The notes under the pieces were generated by a model that saw only the letters and a list, made by a program, of their open reading frames with translations, was not told where the DNA came from and made no database searches. DNA of 64,000 nucleotides, taken from Nitrospirota bacterium. GTDB taxonomy: Bacteria > JACPQY01. Made by a program: the position numbers and the translations under genes. How positions within the stretch are numbered: the first letter of the stretch is position 1; each line of letters opens with the position of its first letter. Shown one piece after another: positions 4,300 to 20,100 of this stretch. The stretch covers positions 56,124 through 120,123 of the forward strand of contig JACPAV010000015.1 in NCBI GenBank assembly GCA_016180645.1, read 5' to 3'.

Positions 4300-7200
4300 A
4301 TGACAACGTGTCATTGCGCTGCTATCCGCCGACCGGCGGAGCCGCGGCAATCTCGCGTGAAGCTTCCACTACTCCTCTTCCTCTCGTGCGCCCTGTTGCC
4401 GACATTGCTTTCCTGCAACCGCAGGGTTCCGGATGAGGACAGGGGCAGCCCCGTTACCCTCACAATTCCCCTGGCGCCGGAGCAGGCCGTGTTCCTAAGC
4501 GGCGTGTTGGACGATGTGGCCGCTGATGTCGTCCTGAACGACGAGACCGTCGCCACCGGCATTCGTGGCGGCATCGGAAGTGATGCTCAGCCTGGCGTCC
4601 GCGGGGGCATCCGCGGCATCGCTCTTCGACGGGCTCATGGCAAACGTGAAACCGCTCGTGCCGATCCCGTCGAAGCAAGACGCCAAGCGGACGATGAAGG
4701 CGCTTTTACTTTCGCCATCACCTTTTTCCTTCCCCCCAACTCGCCACTGGCCACCAGCGACTCCCCACTTCCCCTCACCTGCCGCCTGCGTTCGATCGCA
4801 AACCCCGACCTCGTCTACCTCGAAACCAAGACGGTTCTGGAATGGGCTGCGGACAACGGGCAGCCGGAGACCGGCGACGCATTTGGGATCGACCTGCCCG
4901 ACGACGATGGCGACGGCGTTTCCAACCTCGTGGAGGTCGCCTCCTCGTTCACCCTGAGCGTCGTCGAAGGGGGCGCTTCGACGGGCTCAACACGAGCGGC
5001 GCTTGAGCAAGCATGGGCCGCAGCCACTGACACGGAGCGACGACCCACAGCCGCCGACCTCCAAACCGCCTTCCAAGTCCTCGGTCAGAACCTTCAGACC
5101 AAGCTCAACCGGGAGTCTAAAACGTCCGGTCAAGACTCCCAAACTCTTGGACCCCTGAGCCTTGAAACTCCCGATTTTTCCCCACCGGAGACCACGATCA
5201 CCAACGAGGCCCTCGCCAAGCGCCCGAAATGTCTGGTGGGCAAGGAACTGACGTTCGTCCTGAAGTGCTCCTATCCGGCGCATGACAGCCAATGTACGTT
5301 CCGCTGCTCGCTGGATGGTGGGGAATGGAAGCCTTGCGTATCTTCGGTCACCCTGAGCGTGGTCGAAGGGTCTCATGTTCTTTCCGTTCGGGCCGTGGAT
5401 AGCTTGGGAACCCCTGACCCAACGCCTGCCGAAGTCATTTTCGCCGTCGTGTCCAAGTTCGGCCCGGGCGACCCCCTCTTCCCCGGCGAGACGGCCGAGG
5501 TCATGGTCTCCCCGCAGGGAGGATCGGTGTCGGCGGACACGGGCAATGTGAGTCTCAACTTTCCTTCGGGCGCGCTGAGTGCGGACGCCACCCTTACCGT
5601 TACCAAGCTCGACCCATCAACTTTCCCCTCCCCCTCGACGGGGGAGGGTGCGGGTGGGGGTGGTCCTATCGGATCGATTTACGAATTCGGCCCCGAGGGA
5701 ACGGTGTTCAACGCGTCTGTGGAGATGAGGTTGGCATATCAAGATGCGGATGTTCCTTCCGGAGTCGACGAGGCCAAGCTGGCCTTGGCGACCGAGGTGA
5801 ACGGAGCCTGGCAGGTGATTCCTGGGTCGGGCGCCGATGTCACCCTGAACGAGGTGAAGGGCTTGGTCGACCATTTCTCCCGGTTCAGCCGGATTCAGGA
5901 CACCACTCCACCCCCCGCGCCGGACCCTGCGAAGCTCACTGTGACAATGAATCCACCTGGCGCCGGTGATGCCCTGAGCGGGGCCGCGGGCGCGGTGGAG
6001 GCCTTGGCCGTGGTCCGTGTGTACAAGGATGGTCTCCTGACGACCTCTATCGGTTCCGGGCAGGCCACGGGCAATGGATCACTGATCGCGATTTCGATCG
6101 GTGACAATCAGGCGGATGCGAACAACAAGATTTACCTCATCGCCGTAGACAAGGCGGGCAACATGAGCCCGGTAACAACCATGACCAACGACATCATGCC
6201 TCCGGACACGTCTTTCGTAGGGGCGGGCTTGCCCGCCCTCCTGAGCAACTCCATTTCCGCAACATTCACCTTCACGTCCACCGACACGACGGCGACTTTC
6301 CAGTGTTCCGTGGACAGCGCAGCCTATTCCACCTGCCTCAGTCCGCTCGTCCTGAGCGTGTCGAAGGACGGTCTCCACACCTTCGGCGTTCGCGCTGTAG
6401 ATCAAGCCGGCAATCCGGACCCGACCCCCGCCTCCCACACCTGGACTCTGGATACGACGCCTCCGAACACGCTCTTCGTAGGGGCGGGCTTGCCCGCCCT
6501 CCTGACCAATTCCACGTCCGCCTCGTTCTCCTTCACATCCAATGATACGGCTGCCACTTTCGCGTGCAGTCTGGATGGTGCGACCTTCGCCTCCTGCACC
6601 TCGCCCAAGACGTACACCTCAATCCCGGACGGCCCTCATACCTTCCAAGTGAAAGCAACAGACCAGGCCGGCAACGAGTCCGCTGCCGCCTCATACACGT
6701 GGACGATCAACACGATCCCACCCGACACGATACCCCCCACGTTTGCGGGCCTGGTCTCCGCCACGGCGGTCTCCACTTCCCAGATTGACCTCACGTGGTC
6801 CCCTGGCTCCGACAATCTCAGTCCCGCCTCGGATATCACCTACGAAATCTGCCGGGCGACCGGCGCCGGTGCCTGCACATCGACCTTCACCGCCACCTAC
6901 ATCACCTCCGCGGGTGCGACTTCTTACAGCGTCCCGAGTCTCGCGTCCGGCGTCCGCTATTATTTCGTCGCAAGAGCCAGAGACCAAGCCGGCAACATCG
7001 ACGCCAACACAACCGAGAAATCTGCCCTCACATGGTCAAGCGGAGTAGTCCAGGCAATCAGTGCCCACCGAAGTTTCCACACCTGTGGGCTCCTTTCTGA
7101 CGGAACGGTCAAATGCTGGGGAGTTAATTCTTTGGGTCAATGCGGAAACGGAGCGACAACGCTCCAGCAGACGACCCCTGTGGCTGTTAGCTCGCTTACG

Positions 7201-9273
7201 GGCGTTGTGACGCTGGGGGCTGGGGGTGGTGGTTCCGGCAGCGCGAATGGTCACACATGTGCGGTTCTGTCCGATGGCACGGTCAGGTGCTGGGGGGCGA
7301 ACAGTGCTGGCCAACTGGGCGATGGGACAACGTCGCCTCGGACCACTCCCGTCGCTGTCAGTGGCCTCGCCGGTGCCGTCACTGTCGCGGGCGGATGGAA
7401 GCACACCTGTGCTGTCATTTCGGACGGTTCGGTCAAGTGCTGGGGGTACAACCTCCAAGGTCAGCTTGGGGACGGGACGACAGCTAACGGATTGACTTCT
7501 GCGGCTGTCTCGTCGCTCACCGGTGCTGTTGCAGTCGGGGCAGGGAGCAGTCACACGTGCGCGCTGGTATCCGACAGCACAGTGAAATGCTGGGGATTCA
7601 ATGGTTATGGTTCCCTGGGGGATGGAACGACAGCCGATAAGCTCACCCCCGTCGCGGTGTCGGCTCTTTCCGGCGTGATGGCCTTAGCCATAGGGACTTT
7701 CCAGACCTGCGCGCTTCTTTCGGACGGGACGGTCAAATGCTGGGGACGCAATGAGTCTGGTCAGCTTGGGGACGGGACAACAGTCAACACACCCACTCCC
7801 GTCGCGGTTAGCAATCTTACGGGGGCAACGGCCATAGGCGCAGGAAACATTTACACCTGCTCACTCGTTTCCGATGGGACGGTCAAATGCTGGGGGTCCA
7901 ATAGCTTCGGTCAGCTCGGCGATGGAACGAATGTTGACAAGGCAACTCCTGTTGTCGTCAGCGGCCTTACAAGCGCAATGGCCGTCACAGTTGGGTACCA
8001 GCACACCTGTTCGCTCCTATCGGACGGGACGCCCAAATGCTGGGGATACAACTTTCTCGGCCAACTAGGCGATGGCACCACGGCGACCAAGCCGACGCCC
8101 GTCGCCGTGACCTCTCTCGCCGGCCCGCTCGGCGTGAAACTCCCGCGCCTCCACGAATCCACCGCCTCCGGCGCCCCCGCCCGCCCCTTCCGTGAAGGGA
8201 TCCGTACGGGTGGCAATAGCATTTCAGGCAACACATGCGTACTGGTTTCAGATGGAACAGTGAGGTGCTGGGGATCCAACGCTGACGGGCAGCTTGGCGA
8301 CGGAACAACCGTTGACAAGACAAGACCCGTAACGGTGTCTTCTCTGACCAGTGCAGTTGCAGTTGCCACCAGGGGCCCTTCCGTGTGTGCGCTGGCATCG
8401 GATGGCAGCATCAAGTGTTGGGGAAAGAACTCATCCGGCCAACTGGGAGACGGGACATCCGTGAGCAGAACTGTTCCCGTGGCGGTTTCCGGGCTGACCG
8501 CGGCTATCGCGATCAGCGCGGGAGGCTCTCATGCCTGCGCTCTAGCGTCCGACGGAACCGTCAAATGCTGGGGAAGCAATGCTGGAGGTCAACTCGGCGA
8601 TGGGACAACGGTGAATTCACTCACGCCGTTGACCGTAACTGCGCTTGTGGATGCCATCGCTGTCAGTGCGGGGCTCATCCACACGTGCGCGCTCCTCTCG
8701 GATGGTAGCGCCAAGTGCTGGGGGGATAACCCGTACGGTCAGCTTGGCGATGGAACGAATGTTGACAAGGCAACTCCTGTGCTGGTGTCCACACTAACTT
8801 CTTCGATCTCGCTCGCGTCAGGTGGTTCCCACACGTGCGCCTTGGGATCGGATGGGACCGTGAAATGCTGGGGAGCCAATGGCAATAATCAGCTTGGAGA
8901 TGGGTCAACCGGTGCATCGGGAAGAACCCCCGTGACAGTTACTTCGCTGTCAAGCGTGGTTGCGATAACTGCCGGCGGCTCCATCTCGATAGCTGGCGAC
9001 CATACATGCGCGGTGATCTCGGACGGAACAGTCAAGTGTTGGGGAGCGAATTGGAAAGGGCAGTTGGGTGACGGCACGACGGCCTTTAGATCAACCCCCA
9101 TAGTAATCTCCGGACTTTCGGGCGTTCTTGCCGTCAGCGCCGGCTTCGACCATACCTGCGGCCTTCTGGGCAACGGCTCCGTCTTGTGTTGGGGAAACAA
9201 CAAGTACGGCTCGCTCGGCGACGGGACGACGGTGAATCGGTTGACGCCCGTCCCGGTGACCAACCTGCCGTGA
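4300..9273 (+). CDS. Giant RCC1-repeat surface lipoprotein with ZU5 domain
   Basis: 1657 residues from ATG 4300, which directly follows the upstream stop. GTG 4357 is an alternative start giving a shorter signal peptide; both lead to lipobox TLLSC (Cys39 in the long form). The shared lipoprotein module (LTIPLAPEQAV, PGVRGGIRG, DLPDDDGDGVSN) is followed by a ZU5-like domain (about 400-530), two Ig-like repeats (about 634-810), an Fn3 domain (about 813-910) and 14 RCC1 repeats with the signature [18 protein letters not shown]. The repeats fall into 7+7 around a linker at about 1274-1310 ([19 protein letters not shown]), implying two propellers in tandem. Several peptides such as TLSVVEG and VGAGLPALL come from dispersed repeats. 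Probably exported and surface-exposed; binding partner unknown. Confidence 0.85.
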   Translation: MTTCHCAAIRRPAEPRQSRVKLPLLLFLSCALLPTLLSCNRRVPDEDRGSPVTLTIPLAPEQAVFLSGVLDDVAADVVLNDETVATGIRGGIGSDAQPGVRGGIRGIALRRAHGKRETARADPVEARRQADDEGAFTFAITFFLPPNSPLATSDSPLPLTCRLRSIANPDLVYLETKTVLEWAADNGQPETGDAFGIDLPDDDGDGVSNLVEVASSFTLSVVEGGASTGSTRAALEQAWAAATDTERRPTAADLQTAFQVLGQNLQTKLNRESKTSGQDSQTLGPLSLETPDFSPPETTITNEALAKRPKCLVGKELTFVLKCSYPAHDSQCTFRCSLDGGEWKPCVSSVTLSVVEGSHVLSVRAVDSLGTPDPTPAEVIFAVVSKFGPGDPLFPGETAEVMVSPQGGSVSADTGNVSLNFPSGALSADATLTVTKLDPSTFPSPSTGEGAGGGGPIGSIYEFGPEGTVFNASVEMRLAYQDADVPSGVDEAKLALATEVNGAWQVIPGSGADVTLNEVKGLVDHFSRFSRIQDTTPPPAPDPAKLTVTMNPPGAGDALSGAAGAVEALAVVRVYKDGLLTTSIGSGQATGNGSLIAISIGDNQADANNKIYLIAVDKAGNMSPVTTMTNDIMPPDTSFVGAGLPALLSNSISATFTFTSTDTTATFQCSVDSAAYSTCLSPLVLSVSKDGLHTFGVRAVDQAGNPDPTPASHTWTLDTTPPNTLFVGAGLPALLTNSTSASFSFTSNDTAATFACSLDGATFASCTSPKTYTSIPDGPHTFQVKATDQAGNESAAASYTWTINTIPPDTIPPTFAGLVSATAVSTSQIDLTWSPGSDNLSPASDITYEICRATGAGACTSTFTATYITSAGATSYSVPSLASGVRYYFVARARDQAGNIDANTTEKSALTWSSGVVQAISAHRSFHTCGLLSDGTVKCWGVNSLGQCGNGATTLQQTTPVAVSSLTGVVTLGAGGGGSGSANGHTCAVLSDGTVRCWGANSAGQLGDGTTSPRTTPVAVSGLAGAVTVAGGWKHTCAVISDGSVKCWGYNLQGQLGDGTTANGLTSAAVSSLTGAVAVGAGSSHTCALVSDSTVKCWGFNGYGSLGDGTTADKLTPVAVSALSGVMALAIGTFQTCALLSDGTVKCWGRNESGQLGDGTTVNTPTPVAVSNLTGATAIGAGNIYTCSLVSDGTVKCWGSNSFGQLGDGTNVDKATPVVVSGLTSAMAVTVGYQHTCSLLSDGTPKCWGYNFLGQLGDGTTATKPTPVAVTSLAGPLGVKLPRLHESTASGAPARPFREGIRTGGNSISGNTCVLVSDGTVRCWGSNADGQLGDGTTVDKTRPVTVSSLTSAVAVATRGPSVCALASDGSIKCWGKNSSGQLGDGTSVSRTVPVAVSGLTAAIAISAGGSHACALASDGTVKCWGSNAGGQLGDGTTVNSLTPLTVTALVDAIAVSAGLIHTCALLSDGSAKCWGDNPYGQLGDGTNVDKATPVLVSTLTSSISLASGGSHTCALGSDGTVKCWGANGNNQLGDGSTGASGRTPVTVTSLSSVVAITAGGSISIAGDHTCAVISDGTVKCWGANWKGQLGDGTTAFRSTPIVISGLSGVLAVSAGFDHTCGLLGNGSVLCWGNNKYGSLGDGTTVNRLTPVPVTNLP
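4949..5000. repeat. In-gene copy of a CCCTGAGC...GTCGAAGGG repeat
   Basis: Carries ACCCTGAGCGTCGTCGAAGG followed by a second partial arm (CTTCGACGGGCTCAACACG). It is read in frame as TLSVVEGG. Sister copies lie at 5,348-5,371, 5,839-5,868 (divergent) and 6,348-6,372 in the same gene, and at 33,974-34,000 and 34,536-34,562 in the third RCC1 gene. Confidence 0.75.
5348..5371. repeat. In-gene copy of the CCCTGAGC...GTCGAAGGG repeat
   Basis: CACCCTGAGCGTGGTCGAAG is read in frame as TLSVVEG, just before an Ig-like strand (SHVLSVRAVD). It replaces a segment that is a plain loop in sister repeats. Confidence 0.7.
5626..5668. repeat. In-gene REP-like palindrome (CCCTC / GGGGGAGGG)
   Basis: A G/C-rich palindrome read as PSPSTGEGAGGGG within the ZU5-like domain. 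The same kind of palindrome occurs in the third RCC1 gene (34,340-34,380) and twice in the kinase fusion (38,413-38,520). Confidence 0.65.
6217..6241. repeat. In-gene palindrome GGGCGGGCTTGCCCGCCC
   Basis: Palindrome read as VGAGLPALL at the start of an Ig-like repeat. The same 25 bp recurs at 6,478-6,502, and a variant at 34,065-34,089 is read as VGAGLAPP on the other strand. Confidence 0.75.
6478..6502. repeat. Second in-gene palindrome GGGCGGGCTTGCCCGCCC
   Basis: The second copy lies one Ig-like repeat (about 260 bp) downstream of the first. It could have spread with the domain duplication rather than by a separate insertion. Confidence 0.7.
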
Positions 9274-12135: not shown

Positions 12136-13086
12136 TCAGTACTTCGTGCCGTACGGTTCGGCTTCGATGGAGAACTTGACGTCCGGGTTGGCGGCGACGG
12201 CGTCGAGAAGGGCATCGACTTCCTTCACGTAAAACACCGGCGCGATGCACATCTCATTGGTGTCCGCAGACGGACCGAAGCCGATGGTCTCGGGGACGTC
12301 ATCGTTGGCAAACTGGCATTCGAACTTCAGCTTGGCTCCCTTGGACTTCCTAAGGACCAGCGGATCGGGGAAAACCTGCAAAGGCGGGGCGGCCCAATCG
12401 TTGTTGAAATAGACCTGAGTTTCCTGACCATCTTCCACTTTCCAGATGGTGAACGTCTGGCCGTGGCGATGCATGTGGGAGGTCATGAGGAGGACGGCGA
12501 CGTCCTCCTGAGGGTTCCATTCGCCGGTGGTCACCGAAGTGCCCTTGTAGGGAACGGCAATCTGGATTGAACCCGGAAGTTCGGGGCGCGCGAGGAAGTG
12601 CATTTGCTCGGGGGGCACGACTTCGATCTCGACCTCCGTCTCCCCGTAGGTGATCTTGTCGGAGGTGTTGATCCAGTGGCCGTTCAAGACCAGATGGCTG
12701 TTTGCCGGGATGAAAACGCCCACGGTACTTCCGGTGTCGATTCGGACGTTGCGGTAGATCGAGCCGACGAGTGTGTTCGAGCCGGCGATGAGCGCGAGTG
12801 AAGGGCCGCTGAAGAGATCGTGGGGCCCACCGGACGGGGGATTGGACTCGGAGTCTTGCCAATGATTCACGAGAAAGTGATGGCAGACCTCGCCTTTCTG
12901 CCGGACTTCCAGCCGGAGAATGGCGCCGTCTTCGAGATTGCCCATGGGCATGGCTTGGTAGACTTGGCGGTCGGAATACGGTTGAAGTTCGACGGGTCCG
13001 AGTTTGAATGTGTAGACTTGACCGCGCGGTCGGTTGGCGTCCGAACACGAGACGAGCAGTAATCCCCAGAAGAGAAATCGCCTCAC
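12136..13086 (-). CDS. Copper type II monooxygenase-like lipoprotein
   Basis: 316 residues from GTG 13086, with lipobox LLVSC (Cys14). It matches the beta-sandwich fold of copper type II, ascorbate-dependent monooxygenases (PHM/DBM C-terminal domain): residues near TSHMHRHGQTFTIWK give the His-X-His copper ligands, and the segment with NEMCIAPVFY gives the Met ligand. An earlier HHFLVNHW could belong to the other copper domain. This supports a periplasmic or surface copper-binding protein; substrate unknown. It is divergent from the selenoprotein peroxiredoxin, and the two promoters overlap at their -35 boxes. A consensus TTGACA and a TACGCT -10 lie 8 nt upstream of the start, so the mRNA is nearly leaderless. 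Confidence 0.75.
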   Translation of the reverse strand: MRRFLFWGLLLVSCSDANRPRGQVYTFKLGPVELQPYSDRQVYQAMPMGNLEDGAILRLEVRQKGEVCHHFLVNHWQDSESNPPSGGPHDLFSGPSLALIAGSNTLVGSIYRNVRIDTGSTVGVFIPANSHLVLNGHWINTSDKITYGETEVEIEVVPPEQMHFLARPELPGSIQIAVPYKGTSVTTGEWNPQEDVAVLLMTSHMHRHGQTFTIWKVEDGQETQVYFNNDWAAPPLQVFPDPLVLRKSKGAKLKFECQFANDDVPETIGFGPSADTNEMCIAPVFYVKEVDALLDAVAANPDVKFSIEAEPYGTKY

Positions 13087-13145: not shown

Positions 13146-13208
13146 GTGCGGGTGAAAGTCTGGCAACTGATCAGATATCTGCTGAGCCCTCATGGGAAGG
13201 AGGAGACG

Positions 13209-13649
13209 ATGGTGAAGGTGGGAGAGGCGGCGCCGGAGTTTGACGCGCCGGATCACACGGGAAAGACGAGGCGTCTTTCGGAGTTCAAAGGAAAGAAGGT
13301 GGTTCTGTGGTTTTATCCGGCGGCCGACACACCTGGGTGAACGGCCGAGGGTTGCGGGTTCCGCGACAAACTGAACGACTACGAGAAGCGAGGCGTCCAA
13401 GTTCTAGGGATTTCATTCGACTCGGTTGAGTCCAATGCCAAGTTCGCGCAGAAGTACAATTTCAATTTCCCGCTCCTGTGCGATACGGAGCGACGGGCCG
13501 GCCTGTTGTACGGCGCGTGCGACTCGAAGGAGGCGGGCTATGCGAAGCGGATCACCTACATCATCGACGTGGCGGGAAAAGTGACCCACGCGTTTCCGAA
13601 GGTGGATCCGCGGATCCACGTCGAGGAGATTCTAAAGGCAATAGGCTGA
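13209..13649 (+). CDS. Bcp-type peroxiredoxin with in-frame TGA (selenocysteine) at the peroxidatic position
   Basis: 146 codons if TGA 13338-13340 is decoded as Sec44. Both sides belong to one peroxiredoxin of normal length: KVVLWFYPAADTPG before the TGA and TAEGCGFRDKLNDY after it, where cysteine homologues read DTPGCTxEACGFRD. The TGA therefore occupies exactly the peroxidatic Cys codon, and the resolving Cys49 is kept. A hairpin directly downstream fits a bacterial SECIS. Start ATG 13209 has Shine-Dalgarno AAGGAGG with 5-nt spacing and matches the family N-terminus; leaderless GTG 13152 would add 19 residues. Role: thiol- or selenol-dependent reduction of hydroperoxides. No sel genes are present in this window. 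Confidence 0.85.
13338..13367 (+). promoter_or_regulatory. Sec codon plus candidate SECIS hairpin
   Basis: TGA 13338-13340 is followed by stem GTTGCGG (13,351-13,357), loop GTT, stem CCGCGAC (13,361-13,367): seven pairs with one U-G. The apical loop starts with G and lies 18 nt after the TGA, within the spacing and loop rules known for bacterial SECIS elements. Confidence 0.65.
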
Positions 13650-13767: not shown

Positions 13768-14199
13768 TCATGGCAGCAGTTCCAGTGCCCGAGTGAACCC
13801 TCGTCCGATTCGGATCGCGCCGAAATCGCGCCGATCCGTCGTCAACACCCTGTAGACGTCCCGCCGCTCGGCCACGGCGGCCACCGTGCCGTCGACCAGC
13901 CCTATGTGGAGGTCCCTGAACCTGGCGTCGAACTCCAGCGCGCGAACGATGTCGGATGCCAGCGGAAGTTCGTATTCGTACCGCGTCCGAGCATCGAAGA
14001 CGTCCGTGATCAACCTGCGCATGGCGCTTCGGTTTTCTCGCAGGAAGTAATCCACTTCCGCCAAGACGAGCCCCGGCACGATGACTACCCTTGCGGAGGT
14101 CAACACAGCTTCGTAGTCCGGGAAGCTCGGACCACCCTCGCCGGTGCGGGCCAGCGCACGAAGCAGCCCGCCGGTGTCGGCGATGACAGGCGCCGTCAA
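13768..14199 (-). CDS. PIN-domain toxin (VapC-like)
   Basis: 143 residues. Acidic residues expected for the PIN ribonuclease site are present: Asp8 in VIADTGG, Glu in LAEVDYFL, Asp in GLVDGTVAAVAE and Asp in LTTDRRDFGAI. The start appears to be TTG 14199, which overlaps the antitoxin stop (TTGA), as expected for a translationally coupled toxin-antitoxin pair. Predicted activity is Mg-dependent RNA cleavage, restrained by the upstream ribbon-helix-helix protein. Confidence 0.8.
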   Translation of the reverse strand: MTAPVIADTGGLLRALARTGEGGPSFPDYEAVLTSARVVIVPGLVLAEVDYFLRENRSAMRRLITDVFDARTRYEYELPLASDIVRALEFDARFRDLHIGLVDGTVAAVAERRDVYRVLTTDRRDFGAIRIGRGFTRALELLP

Positions 14200-14423
14200 T
14201 CTTCCAGGCCGCGGAACAGCTCTGACTCATCCCCGAGCTTCGTGTCCGTGGATTCGAACAGACGTGTCGAAGGAGGACGGCGCCCCGAGTAGTAGCGCGC
14301 AGCGACAACGCGCAGGCCCTTCCGGACCAGGTCAGAGGCGGAGAGCCCCGCGGTTCGCGCGCGCTTCAGAGCGCGTAGGTCCTCCTCGTCGAGACGAATC
14401 GTTGTCGAAATCAACCTTGCCAT
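14196..14423 (-). CDS. Ribbon-helix-helix antitoxin
   Basis: 75 residues beginning MARLISTTIRLDEEDL, a typical RHH beta-strand and first helix, followed by ALKRARTAGLSASDLVRKGL. The C-terminal tail is acidic, suitable for binding the toxin. ATG 14423 is preferred over the longer frame from 14441 because TATGGT lies 6 nt upstream of it, with TTGTCT 17 bp further on. Likely autoregulates the operon with the PIN toxin. Confidence 0.75.
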   Translation of the reverse strand: MARLISTTIRLDEEDLRALKRARTAGLSASDLVRKGLRVVAARYYSGRRPPSTRLFESTDTKLGDESELFRGLED

Positions 14424-14429
14424 ACATTC

Positions 14430-14458
14430 ACCATACAACAACCACGGCGAGAAGACAA
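14430..14458 (-). promoter_or_regulatory. Promoter of the toxin-antitoxin pair
   Basis: Minus strand TTGTCT (14,453-14,458), 17-bp spacer, TATGGT (14,430-14,435), then 6 nt to ATG 14423, implying a leaderless transcript. Confidence 0.55.
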
Positions 14459-17112: not shown

Positions 17113-20100
17113 GTGTTATGTGGGGTTAGGAGCGGGCTGCGCGGTGTTCCCGGCGCACAAGTCGCCTTGGCGCGCCTTCAACCTGTGCGTTTCGGGTCGG
17201 TTCTCTTTCTGAGCTTCCTCTTTTCGGCCTGCGGGGACGGAGGTTCGCCGCCACCTGACCTCCCATCCGGAGAACCGCAAGCCGTTTCCGCTTCTTCACC
17301 CGACCCGCCTGACACGATGGCCACCTGTCCCTCCGATGCCTCGGATGGAAACAGCGTGTCGGTGGGTTTCTCCTCACCCGTTTCGGGTGCGGCTTTCTTC
17401 TGCAAGTTGGACAACAAGGCAGCCGTGCCGTGCGCCTCGCCGTTCGAAACGGGTCCGCTCGCGGTGGGCGCTCACAGCTTGACCGTGGGATCGCGGGACG
17501 GGAACGGCAACACGGATCCCACGCCGGTCACCTGCCAATGGTCCGTGGCGCGGGATGCAAACTCGGAAGGGACCAAGCCGCCGTCGGCCTCTGATCTGGG
17601 CGCTCCTTCAAGTGTGAACATCGTGCCGGGGAATGGGTCGATGACCCTGAGTTGGACGGCCGTCCCACAAGCTGTGAGCTACGAGATTCTCTACAACACC
17701 CAAACCTTTTTTGTGGGACCGGAAGGGGGGGTCGTCACCGCTTCGAAGTCGGTGGTGACGACCGCCACCCAGGTGACGATTGCGGATCTTTCAAACGGAA
17801 CGAAGTATTTCTTTGCCGTTTTTGCGATCGATTCGGCCGGAAAGAAGAGCGGAGCCTCCACCGAGGTCAGCGCGACGCCCGTTGCACCGGTGGTCACGGC
17901 TCCCACCGATACGACCGCGCCGATCTTCCTGGGATTGACGTCGGCCGCCTCCCTTTCCAGCACCCAGATCAATCTCGCCTGGACGGCCGGGAGCGACAAT
18001 GTGGCCGCTCCAGCGGACCTCAGTTACAAAATTTGCCAAAGCACGACTTGGGGGGCGTGTCAGACGGCGTTCGCGGCGACGTACACAACGACGGCGGGGG
18101 CCACAAGCTATTCGGTGACCGGTCTTACGGCCTCGATGCTTTATTACTTTGTCGCGCGCGCGCAGGACCCTGCGGGAAACACCGATGGCAACACGATTCA
18201 AAAGAGCGCGACGACGCAGGCCGGTGCGGATACGACACCGCCGACGTTTTCCGGGATTTCCTCGGCCACCGCGGTTTCGAGTAGCAAGATCAATCTTGCC
18301 TGGTTCGCGGCCTACGATGGCGTCACCCTGACCAGCGCCCTGGTGTATGACGTTTGCCAATCCACAACATCAGGCTCATGCGCATCGAGTTTCGCAGCCA
18401 CCTATTCCAGCTCGGCCGGCGCGACGGCTTACTCCGCAACCGGCCTCACTCCGGACACCCCTTACTACTTTGTTGTCCGCGCGAAGGACACGGCGGGCAA
18501 TCGCGATACGAACACCGTGCAGAAAAGTGCAGTGACGAGTGTGACGCAGGTTGCCCAAGCAGTGACCGCCCACATGGGGGGCCACTCTTGCAGCCTCCTG
18601 GCGGACGGCTCGGTGAGTTGTTGGGGAATCAATACCTACGGCCAACTTGGGGATGGTACGACCGTGAACAAACTCACCCCTGTGGCCGTGAGCGGCCTGT
18701 CCACTGCCTTGGCGGTGTCAGGGGGCGACTCACACACCTGCGCCCTTCTTTCCGACGGCACGGTGAAATGCTGGGGATACAATTTCTACGGTGGGCTTGG
18801 GGACGGGAGCACGGCCCACAGATCGACCCCGGTGGTGGTGAACAGCCTCTCGGGCGCGGTGGCCGTCGCGGGGGGTGGATCTTACACCTGTTCGCTACTG
18901 TCCGATGGCACGGTGAAGTGCTGGGGGTACAACAACTCGGGCCAGCTTGGGGACGGGACGACAGTGGGCAAATTGACGCCCGTGGCCGTGAGCAGCCTCT
19001 CGGGTGCTGTGGCCGTTGCGGGGGGCGGCACTCACACCTGTTCCCTTCTTTCCGAGGGGACGGTGAAATGCTGGGGGTACAACAACTCGGGCCAGCTGGG
19101 GGACGGGACAACAGTGTACAAATCGACGCCCGTAGCCGTGAGCAGTCTCTCGGGCGCCCTGGTCGTCGCAGAGGGCACCTCGCACACCTGTTCTCTGCTT
19201 TCCGATGGGACGGTGAAATGTTGGGGGTACAATGTCTCCGGCCAGCTGGGGGACGGGACGACGGCGGACAAGTCAACCCCGGTAGCCGCGAGCAGCCTCT
19301 CGGGCGTAGTGGCCGTTGCGGGGGGCAACAATCACACTTGTTCCCTCCTTGCGGACGGAAAAGTGAAGTGCTGGGGGCGCAATGATTTTGGCCAGCTTGG
19401 GGACGGGACGACGATGAACAAGTCAACTCCTGTGACCGCGAGCAGCCTCTCGGGCGCCGTAGCCGTCTCAGGAGGTGTCTATCACACCTGTTCCCTTCTT
19501 TCCGAGGGGACGGTGAAATGCTGGGGGGGCAACGGGTACGGTCAGCTTGGGGATGGGACGCTCGTGAGCAAATCGACCCCTGTGACCGTTCCCATAACCG
19601 GGGGAGCGCTCGGCGTGATTTCGCCCAACCTCCACGAATCCGCCGCATCCGGCGCACCGGCGCGGCCCTGGCGGGAGGGCTTGAGCGGTGGAATGGATCA
19701 TTCTTGCGCGATCCTTTCGGATGGCACGGGACGATGCTGGGGGGAAACTACTGGTACCAGTTAGGCGAAGGGAACTGGGCCTACGACGACAAGTCCGTCC
19801 CCGTAGTGGTGACGAGCCTGAGCGGCGCCGTGAGCATCACGGGAGGGGTCTACCACACTTGCGCACTGATCGCGGATGGTACGGTTCGGTGCTGGGGGTA
19901 TGGGTCCTCCGGCCAACTCGGGAGCGGGGGAACCTCGTCGAATGTGGCTCCGACGGCGGTCTCTTCTCTCTCCGGCTCGAGCGGAGTCTCAGCGGGCCAG
20001 ATCCACACCTGCGCGCTTAAGTCCGACGGTACGGCCAAATGCTGGGGGAACAATCTGTACGGTCAACTGGGTGACGGAACGTCAACCAATAGAACAACGC

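Follow-up and report, generated by a model that had tools for sequence, protein, structure and literature searches.

Peroxiredoxins in which selenocysteine (Sec) occupies the position of the peroxidatic cysteine are an already described kind of selenoprotein. In the 2005 survey of the Sargasso Sea, the peroxiredoxin with the TxxU motif (COG1225) was counted among the known selenoproteins and was represented by 43 sequences (PMC1088965), and the Global Ocean Sampling set yielded 253 TxxU peroxiredoxin sequences (PMC2398784). A 2026 review lists the Sec peroxiredoxin with reference to work on Eubacterium acidaminophilum published in 2001 (PMC13188914). PrxU of this organism, now Peptoclostridium acidaminophilum, is a characterised Sec peroxiredoxin and is annotated as a thioredoxin-dependent peroxiredoxin.

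The gene discussed here is located in a stretch of 64,000 nucleotides, referred to as the window, from the genome of a Nitrospirota bacterium, and belongs to this known kind, its contribution lying in the lineage and in a natural series of Sec and Cys forms. Like the described TxxU family (COG1225/PF00578), it falls in the same Pfam family with Sec predicted at the peroxidatic T-x-x-U position, has widespread Cys homologues and possesses a SECIS-like hairpin right after the UGA; nothing essential differs, only the host lineage. PrxU carries its TGA at the codon aligned with that of the window gene, but the two proteins are 36–37% identical, PrxU sits apart on a long branch in the tree, and its position 49 is Ser where the window protein has Cys. 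Bcp of Escherichia coli shares the family, the P-x-x-x-T-x-x-C motif and a second Cys five residues later, whereas it contains Cys instead of Sec and is 38% identical to the window protein, which lies under the NCBI cut-off for the Bcp equivalog. The features of the locus are the following.

13197–13203, plus strand: Shine-Dalgarno-like AAGGAGG, 5 nt before the ATG, read from the sequence
13209–13649, plus strand: Bcp/PrxQ-type peroxiredoxin gene, predicted to contain Sec, of 146 codons and a stop, codon 44 being TGA
13338–13340, plus strand: in-frame TGA at the position of the peroxidatic Cys (Sec44), from the frame and the alignment with relatives
13351–13367, plus strand: SECIS-like hairpin of 7 bp with the loop GUU (stem 13351–13357/13361–13367), from comparative evidence
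13353–13355, plus strand: candidate resolving Cys codon (Cys49), from the alignment with E. coli Bcp
13647–13649, plus strand: terminating TGA of the peroxiredoxin gene, from the frame

The peroxiredoxin gene stands alone, with both flanking genes on the opposite strand, and nothing in its neighbourhood suggests a selenium operon. The upstream gene (12136–13086, minus strand) encodes a protein of 316 aa with a lipoprotein-like start and the C-terminal domain of copper type II ascorbate-dependent monooxygenases (PF03712, E 1.1e-6), with no match to an N-terminal domain in Pfam. Downstream (13768–14441, minus strand), a gene for a PIN-domain protein (PF01850, E 3.3e-5) is preceded by an overlapping gene of 81 aa; the arrangement resembles a VapBC-type toxin-antitoxin pair, although the 81-aa product matches no Pfam family. 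Large RCC1-repeat proteins with fibronectin type III or Ig-like parts are encoded at 17113–19764 and 4300–9273 (both plus strand), the former assigned by Pfam and the latter by eye from the repeated motif SDGTVKCWG.

The TGA of codon 44, in the context AADTPGUTAEGC, is the sole internal stop of the frame. The read-through protein matches the Pfam AhpC-TSA family over residues 4–127 (E 4.5e-38), the nearest solved structures are the Bcp-type 3drn and 5enu, whose match spans the TGA, and when the protein is aligned to E. coli Bcp and other sequences, the TGA coincides with the invariant peroxidatic Cys, and P37, T41 and R114 are retained. The protein thus combines an AhpC/TSA domain with the P-x-x-x-T-x-x-U motif and the conserved Arg of Sec peroxiredoxins. 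Five residues past the peroxidatic position, Cys49 corresponds to the resolving Cys of helix 2 in Bcp/PrxQ proteins, a role that is predicted from this correspondence. Among the NCBIfam models, the top match is thioredoxin-dependent thiol peroxidase (PRK09437) with 112.2 bits, below its cut-off of 140, while the PrxU model (NF040737) gives 63.7 bits against a cut-off of 270. A preliminary description of this DNA had given the same frame, coordinates and TGA at 13338, had placed the TGA at the reactive Cys of Bcp-type enzymes, and had noted that similarity, frame and a resolving Cys continue past it; all of these points are borne out here, with Cys49 as the candidate resolving residue.

The genome is a 4.7-Mb draft in 65 contigs, with 97% completeness and 2.6% contamination, and it contains the Sec machinery expected of a bacterium that makes selenoproteins. 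SelA is full length (461 aa, E 2.9e-143) and scores above the NCBI curated cut-off; SelB is represented by a 762-aa open frame with a match to the C-terminal domain (E 4.5e-17), the part read also matching the selB profile (E 1.3e-65); SelD is found with E 1.3e-106; and a tRNA-Sec with the anticodon TCA scores 73.3 bits. A second tRNA-Sec match above the cut-off (L004, 47.2 bits) was rejected, as ARAGORN identified it as tRNA-Cys. The absence of this machinery was named in the preliminary description as the observation that would overturn the selenoprotein reading, and the search recovered selA, selB and selD together with selC in the form of the tRNA-Sec. Since selA, selB, selD and the tRNA-Sec are located on contigs C22, C42, C5 and C11, respectively, and the peroxiredoxin gene on C15, contamination would have to have supplied all five pieces.

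The selD gene (L011 1501–2526, G000:C5) is itself a selenoprotein gene, with an in-frame TGA within CAG-TGA-AGKIG (R-C-A-G-U-A-G-K-I-G), where SelD proteins usually carry Sec. The TGA is followed by a 7-bp hairpin, GTCCAGG-GGA-CCTGGAC. Searches of the genome for formate dehydrogenase, in which none of the listed matches has an internal TGA, and for SelW-like proteins, which gave no match, leave selD as the only other selenoprotein gene found.

Comparison with relatives extends this picture. TGA occurs at the codon of the peroxidatic residue in 18 relatives besides the window gene, including PrxU of P. acidaminophilum, and the remaining fetched relatives have TGC or TGT, so that the in-frame UGA is aligned with a conserved Cys of homologues, as proposed for checking in the preliminary description. 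The TGA forms come from independent assemblies of Acidobacteriota, Rokuibacteriota, Myxococcota, Gemmatimonadota, Armatimonadota and others; no relative was found in viral contigs with the patterns used. Across the 40 genomes searched, selA is present at full length in all 16 with a TGA form, without exception, and matched in 3 of the 24 with a Cys form (Fisher p 1.5e-8, a value that overstates independence because 14 of the 24 Cys-form genomes represent one Nitrospinota clade). One genome in which the nearest peroxiredoxin is a Cys form carries selA as two overlapping pieces, possibly through a frameshift (G077:C12:42326–43325). In another (L043, G040:C61), two peroxiredoxin genes lie next to each other in tandem, and each has TGA as its peroxidatic codon. 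On the tree, about nine exchanges of Sec and Cys forms are required, four of them forced by well-supported branches. Most of the nearest Sec forms carry Ser, Asn, Thr or Ala at position 49.

The preliminary description had also reported a 7-bp hairpin with a G-starting loop 18 nt downstream of the TGA. The hairpin and its loop are confirmed, but the distance of 18 nt applies to the first loop G (13358), and the stem begins 11 nt after the UGA. A predicted SECIS element, with G in its small apical loop, is present shortly after the UGA, although its stability is ordinary (z −0.19, with 80 of 200 shuffles as good); energy-based folding, which does not separate the hairpin from shuffles, was dropped as support, and the case for the element is comparative. 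RNAalifold recovers the same hairpin across the nine nearest TGA forms, in which the second position of codon 49 (a Cys, Ser, Thr, Ala or Asn codon) covaries with the third base of Arg codon 52, the pair at 13354/13364 being C-G in five, G-C in two, A-U in one and A-G, hence broken, in one. As Arg52 is constant throughout, the base change on the Arg side is synonymous. For this pair, 8 pairings were observed against a shuffled mean of 4.2 in the nine nearest forms (permutation p 0.009) and 11 against 5.9 in a wider set of 14 TGA forms (p 0.003), compared with 11 against 10.5 in 23 Cys forms (p 0.50), which show no covariation pattern; these p values are optimistic and serve as a guide, since the sequences share ancestry and the pair is one of seven examined. 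Conservation of the element has its bounds: some close TGA relatives do not form stem pairs 2 and 3, counted from the base, the covarying pair is also broken in L049 and L072, and TGA forms at a greater distance lack a stem at the position seen in the window gene.

Several other explanations of the TGA have to be considered against this evidence. A draft genome of 65 contigs may contain sequencing or assembly errors, and a TGC, TGT or TGG codon of an ordinary Cys peroxiredoxin could have been misread as TGA; the recurrence of TGA at the same codon in independent assemblies of several phyla, the constant presence of selA in the TGA-form genomes checked and the covariation of the downstream hairpin at a synonymous position make such an error very improbable. 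A true nonsense mutation in a decaying pseudogene is comparably hard to credit. It would be in keeping with a Cys-type paralogue in the same genome (C11:93740–94180), which has no internal stop, is 44% identical to the window protein and could have replaced it, but the window gene shows no further stop or frameshift, retains the catalytic Pro, Thr and Arg together with a good ribosome-binding site, and is affected at exactly the catalytic codon in a genome with the full Sec machinery. The preliminary description had judged disruption of that single codon by chance unlikely, and the 18 other relatives with TGA at the same position agree with this judgement.

Reading of TGA as Trp or Cys through a changed code or a suppressor would account for the open frame and nothing more; as TGA also terminates the peroxiredoxin gene and a Sec-type tRNA with the anticodon TCA exists alongside SelA, SelB and SelD, this explanation is extremely improbable. 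Taken together, the Sec machinery, the Sec/Cys pairs, the association of TGA with selA and the conserved hairpin uphold the earlier suggestion of a likely selenoprotein, and on sequence grounds the window gene almost certainly encodes a Sec-containing Bcp-type peroxiredoxin.

In the proposed mechanism, SelD would supply selenophosphate, SelA would convert Ser-tRNA-Sec into Sec-tRNA-Sec, which would be brought to the UGA by SelB docked on the hairpin just past codon 44, so that Sec is placed where Bcp-type peroxiredoxins have the peroxidatic Cys. By analogy with the family, the selenolate would act as a peroxidase: it would attack the peroxide, and the resulting selenenic acid would most likely form a selenenylsulfide with Cys49 of the neighbouring helix and be recycled by a thioredoxin-type reductant. 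Because most of the nearest Sec forms have Ser, Asn, Thr or Ala at residue 49, a selenenylsulfide with that residue cannot be a general feature of the subfamily.

The chances are evenly balanced that these proteins constitute a Sec subfamily distinct from PrxU whose members come from several phyla, mostly represented by environmental genomes, with repeated exchange of Sec and Cys; the resolving Cys at +5 would be absent from most of its Sec forms and kept in the window form. If so, mechanisms using one Sec and those using a Sec/Cys couple could be compared within one subfamily. In practical terms, a gene caller for which UGA always means stop would truncate or lose the window gene. With this gene a known family gains a Sec-using lineage, and the gene and its close Cys relatives form a natural set in which to study how Sec and the resolving residue are gained and lost.
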